From the NCBI RefSeq assembly GCF_022808935.1, contig NZ_JAKZFR010000004.1, positions 62,001 through 126,000 on the forward strand: a DNA stretch of 64,000 bases. The letters are read 5' to 3'. The notes below the pieces were generated by a model that was not told where the DNA came from, did not search any database, and was given only the letters and a program-made list of their open reading frames with translations. Position 1 is the first letter of the stretch. Each line of letters opens with the position of its first letter. Positions 2,727 through 34,196 of this stretch are shown one piece after another. The position numbers and the translations under genes were made by a program. Source of the stretch: Geothrix sp. SG200 (GTDB lineage Bacteria > Acidobacteriota > Holophagae > Holophagales > Holophagaceae).

Positions 2727-5639
2727 ATGAAGACCTGGAAGAGCCTCGGGGAACGGCGCGGGACGGTGCGGGCGCGGAAGGCGGAGTTCGAAGAGGAGCT
2801 GCCCGTGGGCGAGAGCGTCCGGCAGATCAGCCGCCGCGACTTCTTCCGCTTCTCCGGCCTGGGCTTCGCGGCGGGCCTGGCCCTGGGCTGCAAGAGCAAG
2901 GTGGTCGAGAAGGCCATGCCCTACCTCAACGCCCGGGAGGGCCTCACGCCCGGTGTGGCCCAGTGGTACGCCACCACCTGCGGCGGCTGTGCCGCGGGCT
3001 GCGGCGTCCTGGCCCGCAGCCGCGACGGCCGCCCCGTCAAGCTGGAGGGGAATCCCGACCATCCCGTGAGCCGCGGCGGCCTCTGCGCCATCGGCCAGGC
3101 TCAGACCCGGGGCCTCTACGACGAGGATCGCCTGCGCGGTCCGAAGCTGGCCGGAAAGGCCGTGGACTGGGCCGTCCTGGACGCCGACCTCCAGCGCCGC
3201 TTCGCCGAGCTGCGTGCTTCCGGCGGTGCCATCCGCGTGCTGGCGGGCACCATCCTCAGTCCGACCCTGCGCGCCACCGTGCAGGGCTTCATCGGCACCT
3301 TCAAGGACGGTCGCCTGGTGGAGGCGGATGCCCTCAGCTGCGCGGCCCTGGCCGCTGCGTATGAGCGCACCCACGGACGGCGGATGGTGCCGCACTACAA
3401 GCTGGAGGAGGCGGACCTCGTCGTGGGCATCGAGGCGGACTTCCTCGGCACGTGGATGGATCCTGTGGGCTTCACCCGCGCCTACGCCGACCGGCGCGGA
3501 CCCGACAAGCCCCGGCCCATGTCGAAGCACATCCAGGTGGAGAGCGGCCTCTCGCTCACGGGCAGCAACGCCGATGAGCGCGTGCGCCTGGCGCCCTCGG
3601 AGGCCGTGCCCTTCCTGGAGGCCCTGGCTCGGCACCTGGGCCTGTCCGTGGAGGGCGGGGCGCTGCCGACGGCCCTGGCGGCGAAGGCGCAGGCCCTCGC
3701 CCACGAGCTGGAGGCGCACCGGGGTCATGGCATCCTCCTCTGCGGCCTCAATGATCTGCGCGCCCAGGAGCTCGTCGCCCGCATCAACTACGCTCTCGGC
3801 CACGAAGGCACCACCGTGGATCTGGCCCGCCCCAGCCTCCAGAAGCGGGGGGATGACCGGGCCCTGGAGGCCTTGGTGCGCGAGATGGCCGAAGGCCGGG
3901 TCGCCGCCCTCCTGCTGCTGGGCTGCAACCCCGTCTATGAGCAGCCGGCGGTGTTCGGCGACGCCTTCGCCAAGGTGCCCCTGCGGGTGTCCCTGGCCCT
4001 CATCGAGGACGAGAGCGCCGCCGCCTGCACCCACCTGGCCCCGGACCACCACTGGCTGGAGGCCTGGCGCGACGCGGAGCCCGTGACGGGCACCGTCTCC
4101 CTGGCCCAGCCCCTCCTCCAGCCCCTCTTCGCCACCCGCGACGCCGTGGAGAGCTTCGGCGCCTGGGCCGGGCGGCCCGCGCCAGCGCTCCAGGTGCTGC
4201 GCGAGCACTGGAAGACGGCCGTGTTCCCCCGTCAGAAGGCGGTGGGCGACGTCGAGGCGTTCTGGAACGCGGCGCTCCAGAAGGGGGCCGTGCAGGTGGA
4301 TGCGGGGCCCGCGCCCCGGTACCGCGAGGGCCGCGTGGAAGGCGGGCCGCGCGCCGCGCGCACGGACGGCTATGAGCTGCTGCTCTACGCGAAGGTGGGC
4401 CTGGGCGACGGCCGCCACGCCCACATCCCCTTCCTCCAGGAACTTCCGGATCCCATCACCAAGGCCACCTGGGACAACTACGCCCAGGTCTCCCCGGCGG
4501 CGGCGGCGCGGCTGGGCCTGGAGCAGGGTGACCTGCTGCGCCTGCGGCCCGAGGGCCATGCCCTGGAGCTGGAGTTGCCCGTGGTGGTGCAGCCGGGCCT
4601 GGACGACCGCACCGTGGCCGTGGCCCTGGGCTACGGCCGCACGGAGGGCGGCAAGGCGGGCCTGAGCGTAGGGAAGAACGTCTATCCCTGGCGGACGTTC
4701 ACGTCAGGCTTCCTGGCCGCCGAGGCCGCACCTCTCCAGGTGCGGCGGGGCCAGGGCCGCGTGGACCTCGCCTGCACCCAGGACCACCACAGCCTGGAGG
4801 GCCGGGAGCTGGTGCGGGAGATGGCCCTGGCGCCCTACCTGCGCGATCCCGCCGCGGCCCGTCCCCACGAACAGCCGGGGCCTTCCGTCTACGGCGAGCA
4901 CCCCCACGGCGCCCATCGCTGGGCCATGGTCATCGACCTCAGCGCCTGCACGGGCTGCTCCGGCTGCGTGGTCGGCTGCCAGGTGGAGAACAACATCCCC
5001 GTGGTGGGCCGGGACGAGGTTCGGCGCAAGCGCGAGATGCACTGGCTGCGCATCGACCGCTACTACACGGGCTCCGAGGCCGAGCCCGGCGTCGTCCACC
5101 AGCCCATGATGTGCCAGCAGTGCGACCAGGCCCCCTGCGAGAACGTCTGCCCCGTGCTGGCCACGGTGCACAGCGAGGAGGGGCTCAACCAGCAGGTCTA
5201 CAACCGCTGCGTGGGCACCCGCTACTGCGCCAACAACTGCCCCTACAAGGTCCGCCGCTTCAACTGGTGGGAGTATCCCCACGCCAGCGAGCTGGAGCGC
5301 CTGGGCTTCAACCCGGATGTCACCGTGCGCAGCCGCGGCGTCATGGAGAAATGCTCCTTCTGCGTGCAGCGCCTCATGGAGGCCAAGATCACGGCGAAGA
5401 ACGAGGGCCGCGGGCTGAAGGACGGTGAGGCCCTGCCCGCCTGCATGCAGAGCTGTCCCGCCCAGGCCATCGTCTTCGGCGACATGCAGGATCCGGACAG
5501 CCGCATCAGCCAGGTGCTGCGCGATCCCAAGCGCTTTCTGGTGCTGGGCGAGCTGGGCATCGGGCCCGCCGTGAGCTACCTGACCAAGATACGAAACGTC
5601 ACGCCAGAGGCGAACCGGGGAGGCCACCATGGCGCATGA
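2727..5639 (+). CDS. actB: Alternative complex III subunit ActB (molybdopterin-like plus Fe-S fusion)
   Basis: This 970-residue protein joins a molybdopterin-oxidoreductase-like domain (about 60-690) to a C-terminal four-cluster ferredoxin domain (about 735-950), the ActB architecture. The N-terminus carries a twin-arginine motif (SRRDFFRF) followed by a hydrophobic stretch ending GLALGC, so it is probably Tat-exported. A cluster motif CGGCAAGC lies near residue 90. The ferredoxin cysteines are in [40 protein letters not shown] and CMQSCP. In solved ACIII structures the large domain lacks the Mo cofactor (established); whether that holds here cannot be read from sequence. A clear ribosome site (GAGGAG) precedes ATG 2727. 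Confidence 0.92.
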
Positions 5640-23448: not shown

Positions 23449-26112
23449 ATGCAACACCGACCTCTGAAACAGCTCTGCGGAGCCGTCGCCGCGGCGGCCG
23501 TCGCCCTCATGGTGATCGGCTGTAACGGCAAGACCGGCTCCGCCGGCGCCAATGGCATCAATGGCACCAACGGCACCAACGGCACCAATGGCACCAACGG
23601 CACCAACGCCGTCATCACCGTCAATGCCGCTCAGCTCACCACTGCCGAGTGGGGCCAGCTCACCCTGGATGGCAACATCACCAGCGTGACCATGGGCGCC
23701 AAGCCCGTCGTGAACTTCACCGTCGTCGACGGCAAGGGCACGCCCGTCAGCGGCCTGGGCTTCACCAGCAAGTCCTCCACCGCCTTGGCCGCCAGTTACC
23801 CGAACTTCGGGTTCAGCATCGCCAAGCTGGTGCCTGGCACCAGCGGCAGCCCCAGCAAGTGGGTGAACTACATCGTCACCACGATGCCCACCACCACCAC
23901 CGCTGCGGCCCCCGGCAGGCCCTCCACCGACAACACCGGCACCTTGGTGGACCACGGGGATGGTTCCTACACCTACACGTTCTACCGGGACATCACCGCC
24001 ACCCAGGCCTTCCTGGACAACTACACCTTCGACGCCACGAAGAACCAGGTCCGCGATGATCTGGGCAACGTGAGCTACGAGCCGAACCTGGTGCACCGCG
24101 TCACCATCCAGATCGGCGGCAATGCCCGCGGCACCAGCACCAACACGCCCACCGGCGTCAACAGCGGCGTCACCGGCGTGCCCGTCCTGACCCCCGCCAA
24201 CATCATCTCTGACTTCGTGCCTGCCACCGGCGCCGCCCCAGCGGCCACGGACGTGCAGCGCAACATCGTGGACACCTCGTCCTGCAACAAGTGCCACACC
24301 AAGTTCAACGGGTTCCATGGCAGCACCCGCATCAAGGCCGAGTACTGCGTGGTCTGCCACACCGACCAGCGCAAGTACGGCAACCCCGAAGCCGCCACCA
24401 CGGCCACCGGCTACACCGGCAACACCAACAAGATCAATGGCCTGGCCGTCGGCGACTTCCCGGCCTTCATCCACCGCCTGCACATGGGCGAGGAACTCTC
24501 CAAGACGGGCTACCTCTACGCGGGTGTCCCCTTCAACGAGACCACCTACCCGCAGGACCTGCGGAACTGCTCCACCTGCCACACCGCGTCCATCGCTGCC
24601 ACCCCCCAGGGTGATGCGTGGAACACCAACCCCAGCCGCATGGCCTGTGGCGCCTGCCACGACGCCATCGACTGGAACTCCGGCGCCAACCACGGCGGCG
24701 GCGCCCAGACCAGCGACCTGCAGTGCTCCGGCTGCCACGGCTCCGCGGGCATCAAGCTGAACCACATCCCCGTGTCGCCCCTGAACCCGGCCTTCGCCAC
24801 CGGCGGCTACGTCAACGGCTCCTACCTGGCCGGCGATCGCAACAACCTGCCTCCGGGCGCCATCAAGATCGACTACGACCTGAAGAGCGTTACGCTGGAC
24901 GCCACCCGGCACCCGGTGTTCACCTTCAAGTTCAAGCAGACCCTCAACGGCACGACCTCGGACGTGGTCTTCAACACCTACGCGGCCGGCACGGTCACCG
25001 AGATGATGGACAACTTCGTGGGCAGCCCCAGCGTCTACCTGGCCTTCGCGGTGCCGCAGGATGGCATCACCGCCCCGGCTGACGTGAACGCCACCGCTTC
25101 CGCCTACATCAAGAAGGTCTGGAACGGAACCGCCACCGGCACCGGCGTCGGCACCCTGACCGGCCCCGATGCCAGCGGCTACTACACGCTGACCATGACC
25201 GGCGTGGCGATTCCCGCCAACGCGGTGATGCTGCGCGGCGGTCTCGGCTACACCTACAACAAGAACAGCCAGCCCCTGACCCAGACCAACGTGCCGAACC
25301 TGGGCACCACCAGCTTCGCCTACGATCCCGTCACCATGTTGGGCGGCTTCAGCGTGCCCGCGCCCAACAAGTTCATGACGGTCACCGGCTTCTCTGCCCG
25401 CCGCAACATCGTGGACAGCGCGAAGTGCAACGATTGCCACAAGACTCTGGGCGTCTTCACCGCCTCCGCCTACCACGCGGGCGAGCGCAACAATGCCGAG
25501 TCCTGCCACTTCTGCCACAACCCCAACCAGACCAGCAGCGCCTGGAGCGCCAACGCCAGCACCTTCCTGCACGGCATTCACGGCGCCAGCAAGCGCACCG
25601 TGGCCTTCAACTGGCACGCCCCGTCCCCGACGGACACCTTCGCCAACGTGACCTACCCGGCGATCCTCAACAACTGCGAAGCCTGCCACGTTCCGGGCTC
25701 CTATGACTTCAGCAACAGCGCCAACGCTGCGGCCATCCCGAACATGCTCTTCAGCACCGTCGCCAAGGGCACCTACAACACGGATCCCACCACCAATCCC
25801 ACGGGCTACTTCTCCATTTCGCCCTACGTGGATGGCACCACTGCGACCAACTACGGCACGGGCCCGAGCTACAGCGCCGCCACCGGCACGCTGACCCAGG
25901 ACGTCGCCGGGACCAACCTCGTGATCTCCCCGATCACCGCGGCTTGCGCCTCCTGCCACGATTCCTCCGCGGCAGTCGCCCACTTCAAGGGCAACGGAGG
26001 CTCCTTCTACGACACCCGCGCCACCGCCCTGCTGAAGGTCGAGCAGTGCATGGTCTGCCACGGCTCCGGCCGCACGGCCGACATCAAGGCCGTCCACATG
26101 ACCTTCAAGTGA
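23449..26112 (+). CDS. OmcA/MtrC-type decahaem lipoprotein cytochrome, copy 1
   Basis: These are outer-surface cytochromes that pass electrons to minerals or other external acceptors. The 887-residue protein has a lipobox (ALMVIGCNG, Cys about 25), a Gly-Thr-Asn-Gly repeat linker (about 35-53), a beta-sandwich-like region, and ten CXXCH motifs in two groups of five: CNKCH, CVVCH, CSTCH, CGACH, CSGCH, then CNDCH, CHFCH, CEACH, CASCH, CMVCH. The pentahaem-domain arrangement matches the OmcA/MtrC family. AAGGAG precedes ATG 23449. It lies 85 bp after the small lipoprotein with no clear terminator between, so it is probably in the porin operon. Two paralogues follow. Confidence 0.93.
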   Translation: MQHRPLKQLCGAVAAAAVALMVIGCNGKTGSAGANGINGTNGTNGTNGTNGTNAVITVNAAQLTTAEWGQLTLDGNITSVTMGAKPVVNFTVVDGKGTPVSGLGFTSKSSTALAASYPNFGFSIAKLVPGTSGSPSKWVNYIVTTMPTTTTAAAPGRPSTDNTGTLVDHGDGSYTYTFYRDITATQAFLDNYTFDATKNQVRDDLGNVSYEPNLVHRVTIQIGGNARGTSTNTPTGVNSGVTGVPVLTPANIISDFVPATGAAPAATDVQRNIVDTSSCNKCHTKFNGFHGSTRIKAEYCVVCHTDQRKYGNPEAATTATGYTGNTNKINGLAVGDFPAFIHRLHMGEELSKTGYLYAGVPFNETTYPQDLRNCSTCHTASIAATPQGDAWNTNPSRMACGACHDAIDWNSGANHGGGAQTSDLQCSGCHGSAGIKLNHIPVSPLNPAFATGGYVNGSYLAGDRNNLPPGAIKIDYDLKSVTLDATRHPVFTFKFKQTLNGTTSDVVFNTYAAGTVTEMMDNFVGSPSVYLAFAVPQDGITAPADVNATASAYIKKVWNGTATGTGVGTLTGPDASGYYTLTMTGVAIPANAVMLRGGLGYTYNKNSQPLTQTNVPNLGTTSFAYDPVTMLGGFSVPAPNKFMTVTGFSARRNIVDSAKCNDCHKTLGVFTASAYHAGERNNAESCHFCHNPNQTSSAWSANASTFLHGIHGASKRTVAFNWHAPSPTDTFANVTYPAILNNCEACHVPGSYDFSNSANAAAIPNMLFSTVAKGTYNTDPTTNPTGYFSISPYVDGTTATNYGTGPSYSAATGTLTQDVAGTNLVISPITAACASCHDSSAAVAHFKGNGGSFYDTRATALLKVEQCMVCHGSGRTADIKAVHMTFK
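23551..23607 (+). repeat. Nine-base repeat encoding Gly-Thr-Asn linker in decahaem copy 1
   Basis: Tandem GGCACCAAC/T units encode (Gly-Thr-Asn)n just after the lipobox. The linker would space the folded cytochrome from the membrane. Unit number differs among the three paralogues, as expected for slippage-prone repeats. Confidence 0.9.
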
Positions 26113-26281: not shown

Positions 26282-26689
26282 ATGAAGCACCCTCTTCTGA
26301 AGTTGACCCTGGCCGCCATGGCCCTCCTCTCTCCCGCCCTTCAGGCTCGAGCCCAGGAGGAGACCGACCCGCCGCGAAAGGTCGAATCCAAGAGCGCCAA
26401 GGCCGCCAGGGAAGCCAAGACCAAGACCAATGCGGCCAAGGTCAAGGCCCGGGCCAAGGCCAAGGCCGAAGCCGAAGCAAAGGCCATCGACATCAACAGC
26501 GCCACCAAGGACCAGCTGAAGACCCTTCCTGGCATCACGGACGCCTATGCCGACAAGATCATCGCGGGCCGTCCCTACCTCTCCAAGGCCTTCCTGGTGA
26601 CGAAGAACGTCCTGCCGAACGACCTCTTCCAGACCCTTCGGAAGCGCATTGTGGCCCGACAGCCCGGGGTGAAACCCCAGGCCCGCTAG
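26282..26689 (+). CDS. Secreted helix-hairpin-helix (ComEA-like) protein
   Basis: The 135-residue product has a signal peptide (LTLAAMALLSPALQARAQ, cleavage about residue 25), an Ala/Lys-rich charged linker (about 38-68), and one helix-hairpin-helix domain (IDINSATKDQLKTLPGITDAYADKII, about 70-95). The INSAT..L..LPGI pattern is that of ComEA-type DNA-binding modules. It may be a periplasmic DNA-binding protein; a link to the flanking cytochrome genes is not evident. It is separated from both neighbours by terminators, so it is probably transcribed alone. Confidence 0.85.
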   Translation: MKHPLLKLTLAAMALLSPALQARAQEETDPPRKVESKSAKAAREAKTKTNAAKVKARAKAKAEAEAKAIDINSATKDQLKTLPGITDAYADKIIAGRPYLSKAFLVTKNVLPNDLFQTLRKRIVARQPGVKPQAR

Positions 26690-26780: not shown

Positions 26781-26842
26781 TGTGACAGAGGTCACAAGGT
26801 CGGTTGACTCTATAAATTACCGGAGGATCCTCATTGACGAAA
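26781..26842 (+). promoter_or_regulatory. Conserved regulatory module A (Crp/Fnr-type palindrome plus GGTTGACTC box)
   Basis: TGTGACAGAGGTCACA (26781-26796) is a perfect TGTGA-N6-TCACA palindrome. Exactly 21 bp after its first base comes GGTTGACTC, then TAAATTACCG and ATCCTCATTGACGAA. The same order, spacing and sequence recur at 29925 and 32947. It lies 233 bp upstream of decahaem copy 2 and is the likely promoter and operator region. TTGACT would serve as a -35 element; no convincing -10 was found. Confidence 0.75.
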
Positions 26843-26871: not shown

Positions 26872-26958
26872 GTGCTCCTCATGCCACAGACCACCGGCCA
26901 TGCACTGATCGTCGTCCTCCCCCACCCGGAGGATGGCGGGCGCCACCTGGCCCGCTAG
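26872..26958 (+). pseudogene. Short ORF resembling the first codons of rrf2 (remnant or leader)
   Basis: Starting at GTG 26872 behind GGAGGT, the frame reads MLLMPQTTGHALIVVLPHPE and stops after 28 codons at TAG. Its DNA aligns with the start of the rrf2 gene at 33040 (MLPLSQTTGYALRAM), including the ribosome site and the shared ACAGACCACCGG stretch, with a 2-base deletion between ribosome site and start. It is either a decayed 5' copy of the regulator gene or a retained leader ORF. It begins 142 bp upstream of decahaem copy 2. Confidence 0.6.
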
Positions 26959-27013
26959 CGCTCCTGGCACCTCGTCCCATCCACGCATCCGATTCACTCA
27001 AGGAGGATGAACC

Positions 27014-29689
27014 ATGCAACACCGGCCCTTGAAACACCTCTGTGGCGCCATCGCGGCCACCACCCTGCTCCTGGCGCTGATCGCCTGCGACGGCAAGACC
27101 GGACCGGCCGGAGCGAACGGCGCCAACGGCATCAACGGCACCAATGGCACCAACGGCACCAATGGCTCCAACGGCACCAACGCCGTCATCACGGTGAACG
27201 CCGCGCAGCTCACCAGTGACCAGTGGGCGAAGCTATCTCTCAAGGGGTCCATCAATAGCGTCACCATGGGCGGCGCGCCTGTCGTGACCTTCACGATTAC
27301 GGATGGCACGGGCACTCCGGTGAGCGGCCTGGCCGTCAAGAACGCGAGCGGGAACTACCCCAACTTCGGATTCAGCATCGCCAAGCTGATCCCCGCCGCG
27401 GCGGCCACGGGAACCCCCAGCCGCTGGGTGAACTACGTCGTCACAGAGACGCCCGCCGCCGGACAGACCGCCGTTCCCCACTTCGCGGAGCATGAGAACG
27501 ACGGAACCCTAAAGGACAACCTCGACGGCACCTATACCTACACCTTCGCCTTGGACATCACCAAGGTCAAAGGCTACGTGGATGCGGCCACGGTCTACGA
27601 TGCCACCCACCTCAAGGCTGACCTGGACGACCTGACCTACGACCCGACCCTCACCCACCGGCTGATCATCACGGCGGGCGGGAACCAGCCCGGCACCACG
27701 ATCCAGACGCTGGATTCCGCCAACCTGGCCTACGACTTCATCCCCTCCACGGGCAAGGCCGTCACCGCCACGGATCCCCAGCGGGTGATTGCCGACCAGG
27801 CGGCCTGCAACAGCTGCCATACCAAGCTGTCCTTCCACGCCAACTACTTCCCGCCCATCCATGACGTCCTGCTGTGCGTGGTCTGCCACACCGAGCAGCA
27901 CAAGTACGGCGCCACCGAATCCCTGCCCGCCACGGGCAACGTCCTTGTCCCCGGCGCCTACGGCATCTTCACCGCGCGACTCCAGGATCGCGCGTTGCCC
28001 AACTTCCCCAACATGATCCACAAGATCCACACGGGTGAGCTCCTCACCTACCAGGGCTACAACCAGTTCGGCACCCAGTACAACGAAGTGACCTACCCTC
28101 AGGACCTGCGGAACTGCACCAAGTGCCACAGCGCTTCCGCGGCTCCCCAGGGCGGCAACTGGGCCACCACCCCCAGCCGCCTGGCCTGCGGCGCCTGCCA
28201 TGACGCCATCATCTGGGCCACCGGTGCCAACCATGCCGGCGGCGCCCAGATGAACGACCAGAACTGCGCCGGCTGCCACGGGGCCTCGCAGATGCAGGTC
28301 ATCCACACCCCGCTGGTGGCCCCCAACAGCAACTGGGGCCCCGGAACCCACACCAACGGGTCGTACGTCGCGGACTACAAGGACATCCTGCCGGCCGGCG
28401 CTCACCAGATCACCTACGACCTGAAGAACGTCACCCTGAACAGCAGCGCCCAGCCGGTCTTCACCTTCCGCTTCCTCAAGGACGGCGCTCCGGTGGCATT
28501 CAACACCTACGCGGCCGGCGTCACCACGGAGCTCATGGACGGGTACGTGGGCAGCCCCAGTCTCTACCTGGCTTACGGTCTGCCGCAGGATGGCATCACA
28601 GCTCCGGCCGACTGGAACGCCACCACGAGTGCCTACCTGAAGAACATCTGGAACGGGACCCAGGCCACCAATACTTCTGGATCCTCGAGCGCCGGGACCT
28701 TGACCGGACCTGATGCGGACGGTTACTACACCGCCACCCTCACCGGCGTGATGATTCCCGCCAACGCCACGCAGATCACGGGAGGCATCGGCTACGTCTA
28801 CAGCTACGGCACCCAGCCCCTGACCCAGATTGACCTGCCGGATGCCATCTTCGCCTACGATCCGGTCACGACCAAGGGCGGCCTGAGCGTTCCGGCGCCC
28901 AACGTCACGAAGCTGGTCAGCGGGACCCTGCCCGCCGGCTTCGCGGTCCAGAAGGCCCGCCGCTCCATCGTCTCCAATCAGAAGTGCAACGACTGCCACG
29001 CCTATCTGGGCGTGTTCACCGAGAAGGTCTATCACGCTGGCGAGCGCAACGATGCGCCGACCTGCACCTTCTGCCACAACGTGAACCGTGTGAACAGCGG
29101 CTGGGGCGTGAACATCAAGGATGCCGTCCACGCCATCCACGCGGCCGACAAGCGGGCCAACAAGTTCTCCTGGGAAGTCTCCGCGGGCGACTACTACTGG
29201 GAGGTCACCTACCCGGCCATCCTGAACAACTGCGAGGCTTGCCACGTGGCCGGCTCGTACGACTTCAGCAACAGCACCAACGCCGCCGCGCTGCCGAATC
29301 TCCTCTGGACCACCGTGGCCACCGGCACCACGCCCGCGACGATCAACTACGTCAAGGGTGACGGCACCGACGTCCTTCCGGGCACCTACTATTCGCCCTT
29401 CGTGACCGCGGCGACCACCTACGGCTCCGGCTACGCGTTCAATGTCAACGCCGGCAACACCGGTGCGAACTACACCAACGCGGCGTCCACGACGCTGGTG
29501 AGCTCGCCGATCACAGCGGCCTGCTCCAGCTGCCACGATTCCGCGGCGGAGATCGCCCACTTCCGGGGCAACGGCGGGGCCTTCTATGAACCCCGCGCCA
29601 CGGCGCTCCTCAAGGTCGAGCAGTGCATGGTCTGTCACGGCCCCGGCCGCACGGCGGACATCAAGGCTGTCCACATGACGTTCAAGTGA
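27014..29689 (+). CDS. OmcA/MtrC-type decahaem lipoprotein cytochrome, copy 2
   Basis: The 891-residue paralogue of copy 1 starts MQHRPLKHLCGAIAA and has a lipobox (LLALIACDG, Cys about 25), a Gly-Thr-Asn-Gly linker and ten CXXCH motifs in two sets: CNSCH, CVVCH, CTKCH, CGACH, CAGCH and CNDCH, CTFCH, CEACH, CSSCH, CMVCH. Motif order and flanking residues (ACGACHDAI, NNCEACHV) match copy 1 closely, so these are tandem duplicates. AAGGAGGATG precedes the start. It has its own promoter module upstream and terminator downstream, so unlike copy 1 it is probably monocistronic and separately controlled. Confidence 0.93.
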   Translation: MQHRPLKHLCGAIAATTLLLALIACDGKTGPAGANGANGINGTNGTNGTNGSNGTNAVITVNAAQLTSDQWAKLSLKGSINSVTMGGAPVVTFTITDGTGTPVSGLAVKNASGNYPNFGFSIAKLIPAAAATGTPSRWVNYVVTETPAAGQTAVPHFAEHENDGTLKDNLDGTYTYTFALDITKVKGYVDAATVYDATHLKADLDDLTYDPTLTHRLIITAGGNQPGTTIQTLDSANLAYDFIPSTGKAVTATDPQRVIADQAACNSCHTKLSFHANYFPPIHDVLLCVVCHTEQHKYGATESLPATGNVLVPGAYGIFTARLQDRALPNFPNMIHKIHTGELLTYQGYNQFGTQYNEVTYPQDLRNCTKCHSASAAPQGGNWATTPSRLACGACHDAIIWATGANHAGGAQMNDQNCAGCHGASQMQVIHTPLVAPNSNWGPGTHTNGSYVADYKDILPAGAHQITYDLKNVTLNSSAQPVFTFRFLKDGAPVAFNTYAAGVTTELMDGYVGSPSLYLAYGLPQDGITAPADWNATTSAYLKNIWNGTQATNTSGSSSAGTLTGPDADGYYTATLTGVMIPANATQITGGIGYVYSYGTQPLTQIDLPDAIFAYDPVTTKGGLSVPAPNVTKLVSGTLPAGFAVQKARRSIVSNQKCNDCHAYLGVFTEKVYHAGERNDAPTCTFCHNVNRVNSGWGVNIKDAVHAIHAADKRANKFSWEVSAGDYYWEVTYPAILNNCEACHVAGSYDFSNSTNAAALPNLLWTTVATGTTPATINYVKGDGTDVLPGTYYSPFVTAATTYGSGYAFNVNAGNTGANYTNAASTTLVSSPITAACSSCHDSAAEIAHFRGNGGAFYEPRATALLKVEQCMVCHGPGRTADIKAVHMTFK
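27116..27181 (+). repeat. Nine-base repeat encoding Gly-Thr/Ser-Asn linker in decahaem copy 2
   Basis: Seven AACGGC-containing units encode Asn-Gly-Ala/Ile/Thr/Ser repeats. One unit reads Gly-Ser-Asn and one Gly-Ala-Asn, showing drift from the pure Gly-Thr-Asn unit. Confidence 0.9.
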
Positions 29690-29734
29690 CATGAGGGGCC
29701 AGGCCCTCGGCTCTGGCCCGCCACTCCACCCCTT

Positions 29735-29772
29735 CCGGGACTCGGCGCCTTCAGGCTTCGGGTCCCGGTTTT
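29735..29772 (+). terminator. Terminator after decahaem copy 2
   Basis: CCGGGAC (29735-29741) pairs with GTCCCGG (29762-29768), followed by TTTT. A smaller stem GGGCCAG/CTGGCCC at 29696-29719 precedes it. Confidence 0.65.
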
Positions 29773-29924
29773 CATCTGGTCGACCGGAAAAACCACGCGC
29801 CTGAGTCTCAGCGGAGAGTTGGGAAATCTGCTGCCGTGGAGGTCCTCTATGCATCTTATTGCTACATAGGAAGAGATCTATCGTTTCGATGTCCACCATT
29901 TGATTTTCCAAACAAGGATTCGGT

Positions 29925-29985
29925 GGTGACTCGAGTCACAAGGGCGGTTGACTCATTAAATTACCGTTAGATCATCATTGACGAA
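29925..29985 (+). promoter_or_regulatory. Conserved regulatory module B
   Basis: GGTGACTCGAGTCACA (29925-29940) is a Crp/Fnr-type palindrome (GTGA-N6-TCAC). GGTTGACTC starts exactly 21 bp after its first base, then TTAAATTACCG and ATCATCATTGACGAA, as in modules A and C. It lies 257 bp upstream of decahaem copy 3. Confidence 0.75.
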
Positions 29986-30016
29986 TCCCTGACGGAACAT
30001 TCCTACCGGGAGGTGT

Positions 30017-30178
30017 GTGGTGTCCATGTCACAGGCCATCGCCCGTGCGAGGCGCGCCCTTCCCGGAAGGCGTTCTCCAGTGCTCGTGCTCGCAGGAGGC
30101 GACGACTGCGCTGATACGACGGAATCCCTTTCCAACCCCTACCCCACAACGCAGCTCGACTCCCTGAAAGGAGCATGA
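30017..30178 (+). other. Upstream ORF of 53 codons before decahaem copy 3 (rrf2-like start)
   Basis: Behind GGAGGT, GTG 30017 opens a frame starting MVSMSQAIARARRALPG and ending with TGA at 30176-30178, three bases before the cytochrome ATG at 30182. The first codons and the ribosome site align with the rrf2 start region at 33030-33055. It may be a decayed rrf2 fragment that now reads through by chance, or a leader ORF coupled to cytochrome translation. No known domain is visible. Confidence 0.4.
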
Positions 30179-30181
30179 AGC

Positions 30182-32806
30182 ATGCAACAGAGACCTCTGA
30201 AACAGCTCTGCGGAGCCCTCGTGACGGCCGCGGCGCTTCTGACGCTGATCGCCTGCGACGGCAAGACCGGTCCTGCCGGCGCGAACGGCCTCAACGGCAC
30301 GAACGGCACCAACGGCACGAACGGGACCAATGGCACCAACGGCACCAATGCCGTTCCGCTTGTCGATGTCGCCAAGCTGTCCCCTGAGCAGTGGGCCGCC
30401 CTCAAGCCGGTGGGCCAGATCACGGGCGTCACCATGGGCGCCGCTCCGGTGGTGAACTTCACGCTCACGGACGCCGCCGGCACGCCCATCGTGGGCCTCG
30501 GCGCCGTCACGTCGAAGAGCACCGTCCCCGATCGGAGTGGGAACCTCGCCACGCTGACCGGCTATCCCAACCTGGCCTTCGCCGTCGCGAAGCTGGTGCC
30601 TGAGGATGCCACCACCAAGGCTCCCAGCAAGTGGGTCAGTTACATCGTGACCTCCGTGCCGGTCATCAAGGCCTCCACCGGCGCCGCGATCGCGGCCGGC
30701 CCCACCACGCCAACCACCGACAACACCGGCACGCTGGTGGACAACGGCGACGGCACCTACAAGTACACCTTCTACCGTGACATCACCAAGACGCAGGCTG
30801 CCCTGGACGCGGCGACCTACACCGCTCCCAGCGTCAAGGCCGATCTGGGCGACGTGACCTATGCGCCCACGCTCGTCCATCGCATCACCCTGCAGTTCTC
30901 GGGTAACGCCCCCGGCACCGGCAGCAACACGCCTGATGGTGTGACGCTCACTCCGGGTGTCGCGTTGGAGAACCCCATCAACGTGATCTATGACTTCGTG
31001 CCTTCCACCGGCGCCGCTGTGGCGGCCGGCACGGACATCCGCGATGTCGTCTCCATCAACCGCTGCAACGAGTGCCATGGCAAGCTGGCCTTCCACGGCG
31101 GCGGCCGCGTCGAAGCCCGCTACTGCGTGGTCTGCCACACGGACCAGCGCAAGTTCGGCCGCGCTGAAGCCACCACCACGGCCACCGGCTACAGCGGCAG
31201 CACCTACAAGATCAACGGCAAGGCCGCTGGCGACTTCCCCACGATGGTGCACCAGATCCACATGGGCAAGGAGCTGACCAAGACCGGCTACAACTACGCG
31301 AACGTGCTCTACAACAACATCGGCTACTCCATCCTCGATGGCGGCCAGAAGATGTGCCTGAAGTGCCACTCGGCCGTGCCCCAGTCCACGAACTGGAACA
31401 CCAAGCCGACCCGGCTGGCCTGTGGCTCCTGCCACGACCAGGTGGACTTCGCCACCGGTGTGAACCACATGCCCGGGACCAACGTCCCCCTGACCGACGA
31501 CCAGGCCTGCACCATCTGCCACACGTCCGATGCGATCACGACCTACCACATGGCCAACAACGTGACGCCCAACAACCCGAGCATCCCCGCCGGGCTCAAG
31601 AACGTCACCTACGAGATCAAGTCCGCCGCGGCCACCGACACGACCGCGACCGTGGTCTTCAAGGTCAAGGTCGACGGCGCCGACGCGACCTTCCTGGCCC
31701 CCGCGGCCGGCATGGCCAACCCCCTGGATGGCTTCACGGGCTCCCCCAGCTTCCTGCTGGCCTACGCGCTGCCCCAGGACGGCGTGGCCGCCCCCGCCGA
31801 TTACAACAACCTCGGCAGCGGCGCCTCCAACTTCCAGCCGATCAGCGTCTCCATCGCCAACCTGCTAGATCCCAACTACGCCGCCACCCGTGGGACGCTC
31901 GCCGGCCCCGACGCGGACGGCTACTACACCGCCAACCTGGTGGGCACGAAGATCTTCCCCGTCGGGGCGAAGATGCGTTCCGTGTCCCTGCAGGGTTACT
32001 TCACCCAGGTCATTTCCACGGGTAACGTGGCCCGCCACGCCATCTCGGTCATCAAGCCCGTGACCGGCGACACGGTCCGCCGCACCGTCATCGATTCCGC
32101 CAAGTGCGCCAAGTGCCACGAGTGGTTCGAGGGCCACGGCGGCAACCGCGTCTACGAGGTCCAGGTCTGCGTCCAGTGCCACGTTCCCGGCCTGACCACC
32201 AGCGGCCGCGGCATCTCCGACGCCGCGCTGAACGCCTATGCGTTCTCCACTTCCGACCAGGCCATCCTCACCGCCTGGCAGTTCGACAAGACCCTGCCGA
32301 ACGCCGCCCTGGCGTTCCCGCAGGTCACCAACAACTTCAAGGACATGATCCACGGCCTGCACGCCGGGAAGGATCGCAACGACTCCATCAAGATCGCCCG
32401 CGATCGGACGCCGTCCGCGATCAACCTCATCGACGGGGCGAACATCGGCTTCCCTGGCATCCTGAACAACTGCCAGAGCTGCCACACCCCCACCGGCTAC
32501 AGTGGCGTGCCCGCCAACGCCCTGGCCTCCCGCCAGGAAGCAGACAACGGCGTGTTCCTCAACGGCACCAACCGCGCGCCGGCGGACGCCAAGGCCGCGC
32601 TGGCCACCAACAACGCCAATGACCTGGTGACCACGCCCTTCACGGCCGCCTGTGTCAGCTGCCACGACAGCACCATCGCCAAGGCCCACATGAACCAGCA
32701 GGGCGGGCAGGTCCTGGTGCTCCGTAGCGGCCTCAACCTGGCCGGGGAATCCTGCGGCACCTGCCACGGCGCCGGCGCCACGTTCGATCCCGCCAAGGTG
32801 CACTAG
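30182..32806 (+). CDS. OmcA/MtrC-type decahaem lipoprotein cytochrome, copy 3
   Basis: The 874-residue paralogue begins MQQRPLKQLCGALVTAA, nearly the same as copy 1, with lipobox LLTLIACDG and the longest Gly-Thr-Asn linker of the three. It has ten CXXCH motifs: CNECH, CVVCH, CLKCH, CGSCH, CTICH, then CAKCH, CVQCH, CQSCH, CVSCH and CGTCH. The second half is more diverged than copy 2 (for example CAKCHEWFEGHGGNRVYEVQ), so its exposed haem surface or partner may differ. The 5' flank (CTGAAAGGAGCATGAAGC) matches the flank of copy 1. Two hairpins follow the stop. Confidence 0.93.
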   Translation: MQQRPLKQLCGALVTAAALLTLIACDGKTGPAGANGLNGTNGTNGTNGTNGTNGTNAVPLVDVAKLSPEQWAALKPVGQITGVTMGAAPVVNFTLTDAAGTPIVGLGAVTSKSTVPDRSGNLATLTGYPNLAFAVAKLVPEDATTKAPSKWVSYIVTSVPVIKASTGAAIAAGPTTPTTDNTGTLVDNGDGTYKYTFYRDITKTQAALDAATYTAPSVKADLGDVTYAPTLVHRITLQFSGNAPGTGSNTPDGVTLTPGVALENPINVIYDFVPSTGAAVAAGTDIRDVVSINRCNECHGKLAFHGGGRVEARYCVVCHTDQRKFGRAEATTTATGYSGSTYKINGKAAGDFPTMVHQIHMGKELTKTGYNYANVLYNNIGYSILDGGQKMCLKCHSAVPQSTNWNTKPTRLACGSCHDQVDFATGVNHMPGTNVPLTDDQACTICHTSDAITTYHMANNVTPNNPSIPAGLKNVTYEIKSAAATDTTATVVFKVKVDGADATFLAPAAGMANPLDGFTGSPSFLLAYALPQDGVAAPADYNNLGSGASNFQPISVSIANLLDPNYAATRGTLAGPDADGYYTANLVGTKIFPVGAKMRSVSLQGYFTQVISTGNVARHAISVIKPVTGDTVRRTVIDSAKCAKCHEWFEGHGGNRVYEVQVCVQCHVPGLTTSGRGISDAALNAYAFSTSDQAILTAWQFDKTLPNAALAFPQVTNNFKDMIHGLHAGKDRNDSIKIARDRTPSAINLIDGANIGFPGILNNCQSCHTPTGYSGVPANALASRQEADNGVFLNGTNRAPADAKAALATNNANDLVTTPFTAACVSCHDSTIAKAHMNQQGGQVLVLRSGLNLAGESCGTCHGAGATFDPAKVH
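30284..30349 (+). repeat. Nine-base repeat encoding Gly-Thr-Asn linker in decahaem copy 3
   Basis: Tandem GGCACSAAC/T units encode Asn-Gly-Leu then repeated Asn-Gly-Thr. It is the purest and longest Thr-type run of the three paralogues. Confidence 0.9.
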
Positions 32807-32946: not shown

Positions 32947-33007
32947 GGTGACGAAGATCACAAGGATGGTTGACTCGTTAGATTACCGACGGATCCTCAT
33001 TGATGAG
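32947..33007 (+). promoter_or_regulatory. Conserved regulatory module C, upstream of rrf2 copy B
   Basis: GGTGACGAAGATCACA (32947-32962) followed after exactly 21 bp from its first base by GGTTGACTC, TTAGATTACCG and ATCCTCATTGATGAG. It is the third copy of the module at 26781 and 29925. Here the downstream gene is an intact rrf2, 93 bp from the palindrome start, so this is probably the parent arrangement. Confidence 0.75.
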
Positions 33008-33039: not shown

Positions 33040-33522
33040 GTGCTCCCCTTGTCACAGACCACCGGTTACGCGCTGCGCGCCATGCGATGCCTCCAGGAGC
33101 CCGGTGGGCAACCGGTCCTGGTGGAATCCGTGGCGGACTACACCGGCATCCCGAGATCCTACCTCTCGAAGCTGGTCCACAAGCTGGCCAAGAAGGGCCT
33201 GGTGACCGCCCGTCGCGGCCATCACGGCGGCGTCGTCCTGGCCAAGCCCTCGGCTGAGATCACGCTGGAGGACCTTTCTGAAGCCATCGACGGCGTGGCC
33301 TGGCGCAAGCGCTGCCTGATGGGCCTGGCCGGGTGCACGGAGGAGACGCCCTGCGTGCTCCACGAGTACTGGAAGCAGACCCTGCAGGAGATCCTGGTGC
33401 GGCTGCGCTCCGTCACCCTGGCGGACATGGCCCGCCATCAGGATCCAGGCGTGGAACGCTTCCGCGCCGACCATGGCTTCCTGGCCACGGCAGAGGCGGA
33501 ACGGAATCACGCTCCGGTCTGA
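33040..33522 (+). CDS. Rrf2-family transcriptional regulator, copy B
   Basis: The 160-residue protein (from GTG 33040) starts MLPLSQTTGYALRAM, with the recognition helix region GIPRSYLSKLVHKLAKKGLV (about 37-56) and wing RRGHHGGVVLAKP. CLMGLAGCTEETPC (about 94-107) has the C-X6-C-X5-C cluster spacing of copies A and C. GTG 33040 is preferred over ATG 33028 because GGAGGT sits at 33030-33035 and the resulting N-terminus matches copy C. As the intact regulator under the same upstream module as two decahaem genes, it is the best candidate regulator of the locus. Confidence 0.9.
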   Translation: MLPLSQTTGYALRAMRCLQEPGGQPVLVESVADYTGIPRSYLSKLVHKLAKKGLVTARRGHHGGVVLAKPSAEITLEDLSEAIDGVAWRKRCLMGLAGCTEETPCVLHEYWKQTLQEILVRLRSVTLADMARHQDPGVERFRADHGFLATAEAERNHAPV

Positions 33523-33553: not shown

Positions 33554-34099
33554 TCAGGCCTTCTTCGCGGTGGCCTTCGCGGCCGCGGGCTTCCGGGCCG
33601 GCGCCTTCGCCCCGGCCGGCTTGGCGGCCTTCCTGGGCTTGGGCTTGAGCTTCTTCTCGGGGAGCGCATCCGCCAGGCGCCAGGTGCGGCTCTGCTGTTC
33701 GAAGGCGCGGATCTCCTCCAGGGAGATGTCCTTCAGGCAGCGATGGATGTGGTCACGCTCGGACTTCCAGAAGGTGTGGGCGGGGCAGGCCCGCTCGTCG
33801 CTGCACTCCTTGAAGCCCAGCAGGCACTGATTGCGCCACTCGGAGCCGTCCACGGCCTCGGCGATGAGGTCCAGGGTGATCTCCTTGGCGGCCAGGGCCA
33901 GCACCACGCCGCCCTTGTTGCCGCGCTTGGCCAGCACCAGACCCACCTTCGCCAGCTTGTGGATCATCTTGGATAGGTAGGGCCGGGGGAAGCCTGTGCG
34001 GGCCGCCACGTCCACCACCAGCGTGGGCTTGCCGCCGGGATCCTCGAGGCAGCTCATGGCCAGGACTGCGTAACCGGAGGACTGGGACAGTGGGAGCAT
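33554..34099 (-). CDS. Rrf2-family transcriptional regulator, copy C, with Lys/Ala/Pro-rich tail
   Basis: The 181-residue protein starts MLPLSQSSGYAVLAM and is clearly paralogous to copy B (PRPYLSKMIHKLAKVGLVLAKRG). CLLGFKECSDERAC carries the C-X6-C-X5-C motif. After about residue 148 it has a basic, low-complexity tail of KPKPRKAAKPAG and AKAPARKPAAAKATAKKA type, like histone H1 or AlgP tails, which is not part of a normal Rrf2 protein. The tail could add non-specific DNA binding or compaction. ATG 34099 has AGGTG upstream; a GTG at 34105 is possible. The gene converges on copy B and ends 31 bp from it. Confidence 0.9.
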   Translation of the reverse strand: MLPLSQSSGYAVLAMSCLEDPGGKPTLVVDVAARTGFPRPYLSKMIHKLAKVGLVLAKRGNKGGVVLALAAKEITLDLIAEAVDGSEWRNQCLLGFKECSDERACPAHTFWKSERDHIHRCLKDISLEEIRAFEQQSRTWRLADALPEKKLKPKPRKAAKPAGAKAPARKPAAAKATAKKA

Positions 34100-34174
34100 G
34101 GTCACCTACGCAGAAATGGAAGATGATTCGATCAAGAATGATAGACGATCTTCAGGTCAATCACATCCAAAGAG

Positions 34175-34190
34175 TGTGATTTCTTTCACA
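34175..34190. promoter_or_regulatory. Perfect Crp/Fnr-type palindrome upstream of rrf2 copy C
   Basis: TGTGA-TTTCTT-TCACA is a perfect palindrome 76 bp upstream of ATG 34099 (minus strand). Read toward the gene, it is followed by a TTGACC element, as the palindromes of modules A-C are followed by TTGACT, though with wider spacing. Confidence 0.6.
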
Positions 34191-34196
34191 ATGGCC

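Follow-up and report, generated by a model that had tools for sequence, protein, structure and literature searches.

Tandem duplication or deletion is an established route to promoter capture, with his in Salmonella, citT in the Escherichia coli long-term evolution experiment and TDAH constructs as examples, as described in PMC11111574. The Geothrix locus described below resembles those cases in that a duplication joint appears to have fused an existing promoter to a gene without it, changing its control. It differs in being natural, in being shared by many species of the genus, in keeping codons of the donor and in having as donor a regulator gene that lies beside its new targets. Metal reducers commonly duplicate their cytochromes, and in Geobacter, as in Geothrix, multihaem cytochromes have duplicated repeatedly and diverged fast, for example in the growth of the omcS/omcT/omcJ paralogs (PMC12977616); on a text search, the words "promoter" and "recombination" were absent from that paper. 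In the titles and abstracts of the literature on Rrf2 with multihaem cytochromes and on Geothrix decahaem cytochromes, no recognisable report of the present arrangement was found. Capture itself is already known, and what is added here is a well-preserved natural example, a genus-wide series with readable donor codons and a regulator gene as the donor.

The window analysed is a stretch of 64,000 nt from a Geothrix genome (Holophagaceae; 3.36 Mb in total; label G000, contig C5, positions 62001 to 126000). The locus was compared in this genome and in 39 further genomes. By rrf2, the named species closest to it are Geothrix terrae (G049), G. paludis (G012), G. fuzhouensis (G007), G. campi (G004), G. 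oryzisoli (G011) and G. fermentans (G006); the label G008 is that of G. limicola. The features of the locus, in window coordinates, are as follows.

23449 to 26112, plus strand: CYT1, a decahaem lipoprotein cytochrome of the OmcA/MtrC family, part of the porin-cytochrome run (TIGR03507, 467.8 bits against a cut-off of 209.3; 10 CXXCH)
26282 to 26689, plus strand: helix-hairpin-helix (HHH) protein, PF12836, whose counterpart stands directly before the rrf2 promoter in single-cytochrome loci
26781 to 26842, plus strand: module A, a copy of the rrf2 promoter/operator, TGTGACAGAGGTCACA - TTGACTCTATAAATTACCG - GATCCTCATTGACGAA
26863 to 26958, plus strand: fragment A, the rrf2 ribosome site, a GTG at 26872 and the remains of about 23 rrf2 codons, in a 28-codon frame (MLLMPQTTGHAL...) closed by TAG at 26956 to 26958
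27014 to 29689, plus strand: CYT2, a decahaem cytochrome from the CYT1 lineage
29925 to 29986, plus strand: module B, a copy of the rrf2 promoter/operator
30008 to 30178, plus strand: fragment B, the rrf2 ribosome site, a GTG at 30017 and the remains of about 13 rrf2 codons, in a 53-codon frame (MVSMSQAIARAR...) closed by TGA at 30176 to 30178
30182 to 32806, plus strand: CYT3, a decahaem cytochrome whose body is a separate old lineage and whose 5' end is CYT2-like
32948 to 33007, plus strand: module C, the rrf2 promoter/operator itself and the ancestral copy, present upstream of rrf2 at 40 loci in the genus
33040 to 33522, plus strand: intact rrf2 (Rrf2a), with cysteines spaced C-x6-C-x5-C (PF02082, E = 1.7e-30; TIGR00738, 99.9 bits)
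33554 to 34105, minus strand: Rrf2b, the product of another rrf2 gene in convergent orientation, sharing about 52% identity with Rrf2a

All three cytochromes score between 442 and 468 bits on TIGR03507, over the cut-off of 209.3, and have ten CXXCH motifs each. In both respects, and in having a porin gene in the same run, they agree with the outer-membrane decahaem cytochromes of the OmcA/MtrC family; they differ in that Geothrix has two to four tandem paralogs, the later ones with promoter copies of their own. No module was found upstream of CYT1 by motif or profile search. G. fermentans has a further module-plus-cytochrome unit, with four decahaem cytochromes in tandem (L067) and modules before three of them, the first strongly decayed. 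At the lipobox (23449 to 23530, 27014 to 27095 and 30182 to 30263), CYT1 has C-N after the signal peptide and the module-bearing CYT2 and CYT3 have C-D; in E. coli, Asp after the Cys holds lipoproteins in the inner membrane.

Rrf2a exceeds the Rrf2-family cut-offs (PF02082, 106.3 bits against 30; TIGR00738, 99.9 against 73.3), and its three cysteines, C-x6-C-x5-C in the effector part, were present in 40 of 41 loci. It has the Rrf2 domain and three cysteines in common with the Fe-S regulators of that family (IscR, NsrR, RsrR and SufR-type) and differs from them in the spacing of the cysteines; it scores far under the equivalog cut-offs of IscR, NsrR and RirA (64.1 against 207.55 bits, 54 against 182 and 45.8 against 193, respectively), for which reason its signal is left unnamed. 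Fe-S regulators of the Rrf2 family commonly control their own promoters. The two rrf2 genes are adjacent in most relatives, with about 3.3 kb between them at one locus (L085, genome G038), and a CRP-like site, GTGATTTCTTTCACA, lies at 34176 to 34192, upstream of rrf2b. In genome G036 (L104, contig C237), a second rrf2a relative (66%) lies close behind a cytochrome and matches the profile described below without its promoter part.

In loci with a single cytochrome, the gene order is porin, two small cytochromes, CYT, HHH, rrf2a with its promoter, and the convergent rrf2b. The promoter before rrf2a was kept in all 40 genus loci with upstream DNA, including one-cytochrome loci that have no other copy. 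Since rrf2 has the promoter in every relative and the cytochromes have it only in the multi-copy group, rrf2 is the donor throughout the genus. Modules A, B and C have in common a block comprising a GTGA-N6-TCACA palindrome, GGTTGACTC, ATTACCG and GATC-TCATTGA, together with the spacing within the promoter and a 5' leader stretch of about 20 bases. A pattern search of the whole 3.36-Mb genome with the promoter motif returned exactly these three sites, the next best having 3 mismatches; the CRP-like half of the motif, taken alone, is also present elsewhere in the genome. A wider regulon under the same promoter in the window genome was considered and rejected on that search.

Module copies before cytochromes were found in ten genomes, all of the multi-copy group (G000, G004, G005, G006, G007, G010, G011, G012, G020 and G049). 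They total 19, one of which, at position 5600 in G006, is weak (E = 0.004). At conserved positions, the copied modules track the rrf2 promoter with a rank correlation of 0.82, part of which would be given by shared descent alone. No module copy was found before the cytochromes of G014 and G037, which have two each, or of G035, so cytochrome duplication also occurs without capture.

The earlier note had placed 5'-end fragments of rrf2 before the second and third decahaem genes, and alignments, a profile search and the promoter match all bear this out, as they do the 28- and 53-codon frames and the end of the second frame three bases before the CYT3 ATG at 30182. Its coordinate for the intact rrf2 start, 33030, needs correction, the GTG being at 33040. 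After the start codon, 26 of the first 33 bases of fragment A agree with rrf2, a level reached at two of 127,928 window positions on both strands, as expected for A and rrf2 themselves. The ungapped alignment with rrf2 extends over 67 bases for A (p < 1/2000 by shuffling) and 35 bases for B (p = 0.006 by shuffling). Searches with a profile of the promoter and rrf2 start, built from 41 rrf2 loci in 41 genomes, gave E = 6e-19 for A and E = 3e-16 for B, the matches ending about 12 and 15 codons into rrf2, respectively. The part of fragment A past codon 12 does not reach significance by itself, its only support being that it continues the alignment without a gap; beyond about 13 codons, shuffling gives no support for B. 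Site A of G020 matches rrf2 codons 13 to 26 (p = 0.006). The same promoter thus stands before the donor and the new genes, with homology running past it into donor codons, which is the pattern by which capture is recognised.

The fragments are very probably what remains of duplications by which the 5' part of rrf2, from its promoter through the ribosome site to the first codons, came to lie directly before cytochromes. If a stretch running from a few tens of bases upstream of the CYT start into the first rrf2 codons were duplicated in tandem, the result would be the order CYT1, HHH, promoter with truncated rrf2, CYT2, as seen in the window. The HHH gene lies directly left of module C in single-copy loci and directly left of module A in the window. 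The rrf2 codons fade into the DNA upstream of the cytochrome, and the exact joint is no longer readable. In G010, G020 and G035, CYT3 is located downstream, and because of this a simple duplication also needs the later loss of one CYT3 and of copies of HHH. In a second step, the CYT2 promoter, the rrf2 remnant and the signal peptide would have been joined to the old CYT3 body by recombination near an Asn-Gly-Thr repeat. Selection would afterwards have held the promoter, and the rrf2 codons, having lost their use, would have decayed.

The cytochrome trees agree with two such steps. CYT2 bodies branch within the CYT1 lineage, and CYT3 bodies form an old separate branch that supplies the sole cytochrome in three genomes (L079, L083 and L101, in G019, G034 and G032), where the one cytochrome read has a CYT3-type body and a CYT1-like 5' end. 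In the tree of 5' ends, based on 98 columns, the 5' ends of module-bearing CYT3 genes fall together with the CYT2 ones on a branch that is not starred (88/82). A topology forcing them to group with the module-less genes of related body was rejected (AU p = 0.0001 with all, 0.012 with the nearest), the tested groups having been named after the first tree was seen. The similarity of CYT3 switches at about residues 45 to 100, from the Asn-Gly-Thr repeat onward. This repeat occupies residues ∼35 to 60, after the signal peptide, in most CYT copies, and it seems to be the place where the 5' ends and bodies of paralogs are exchanged. Modules A and B carry features missing from C (AAATTACC and GACGAA), and B therefore probably derives from A; promoter, fragment and signal peptide probably passed to CYT3 as one block with CYT2 as the source.

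These same observations lend some weight to a rather unlikely alternative, namely that gene conversion or short-patch recombination carried the promoter and the 5' end of rrf2 away from rrf2 in a small block, no cytochrome unit being duplicated. The old CYT3 gene seems to have acquired module B along with a new 5' end, and B probably came from A. Against it, the flanks of A, with HHH on the left and a CYT1-derived cytochrome on the right, are those predicted by tandem duplication.

The fate of the fragments across species bears on a second alternative. At the B sites of eight species, mean pairwise identity was 91% in the module, 84% in the stretch to the ribosome site, 82% in the ribosome site and first codons and 48% in the linker; at the A sites of ten species, the corresponding values were 84%, 46%, 46% and 27%. 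The earlier note had proposed comparing upstream DNA in relatives, and on that comparison the promoter persists and the fragment degenerates, through frameshifts, altered stops or outright loss. Fragment A of G. paludis is frameshifted by a one-base deletion, and most rrf2 codons are lost at four A sites. In G. campi, site A is promoter only, the similarity ending inside it; at other A sites it ends 2 to 5 codons in. Homologous loci without any fragment and without similarity past the ribosome-site region had been named beforehand as the observation that would tell against the fragments; one orthologous site, G. campi A, has none.

The earlier note had left the choice between capture by duplication and leader ORFs, and it is the former that is well supported, by the genus-wide donor and by homology through the ribosome site into codons. 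That the fragments are working leader ORFs, starting at the rrf2-like GTG with translation coupled to the cytochrome or attenuating it, is improbable. It would fit the preservation of the ribosome site and first codons over the linker at B, where the ribosome site is kept in all eight species, and the pattern in A, where the window and G. terrae differ at 1 of 36 bases in the first codons and at 14 of 48 in the rest (p = 0.001). The B frame is also open for at least 36 codons in the eight species, but the other two frames are often equally open, and its stop lies 3 bases before, 22 bases before or 19 bases after the CYT start, or the frame enters the cytochrome, depending on the species; the three-base gap before CYT3 occurs in the three closest species only. 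The changed codons between the window and G. terrae are mostly non-synonymous (10:1 in A and 4:2 in B), and because of this and the varying position of the frame relative to the cytochrome, conservation of a leader peptide is unlikely. The frameshift and losses at A sites also speak against leader ORFs, as does RNA folding, which is not above that of shuffles (z = -0.8 and -1.5). Two specific candidates were rejected: a conserved leader peptide, whose frame and residues are not kept across species, and an RNA attenuator, the folding of three leaders being no better than that of shuffles. On these comparisons, plain decay does not explain the better-kept ribosome site and first codons (in B, and in A of close relatives), and the 5' leader may be under some constraint.

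It is similarly doubtful that the promoter, the rrf2 ribosome site with the first 6 to 12 codons and the signal peptide make up a mobile 5' cassette swapped between cytochrome bodies at the Asn-Gly-Thr repeat, in which the retained rrf2 start would still be a translated leader tying cytochrome output to rrf2 expression. That only the operator and ribosome site are common, through convergence or regulon growth and without duplication of rrf2 codons, is highly improbable: the early end of the similarity at G. campi A and other A sites would suit it, but it is contradicted by the codon homology (∼23 codons ungapped in A, unique in the window, and ∼13 in B), by the G020 match and by the common promoter spacing and 5' leader.

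With capture by duplication as the preferred reading, the common promoter block makes it plausible that CYT2, CYT3 and rrf2 are under common regulators, and the claim of the earlier note that capture explains the shared control is plausible to that extent. The expected regulators are probably a CRP/FNR-type activator and an Fe-S Rrf2 protein that controls its own gene; the palindrome is similar to CRP/FNR-type sites, and the remainder of the block could hold an Rrf2 operator. CYT1, which is without the block, is expected to follow the porin operon. The prediction is that in Geothrix rrf2 shares a regulon with cytochromes 2 and 3 and not with cytochrome 1. For annotators, the locus carries a warning that the short frames A and B are not to be called genes. 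With about ten species at several stages of decay, it illustrates how the promoter of an adjacent redox regulator can come to govern duplicated respiratory cytochromes, a fossil trace of new genes joining an existing switch in the iron-reducing Geothrix.
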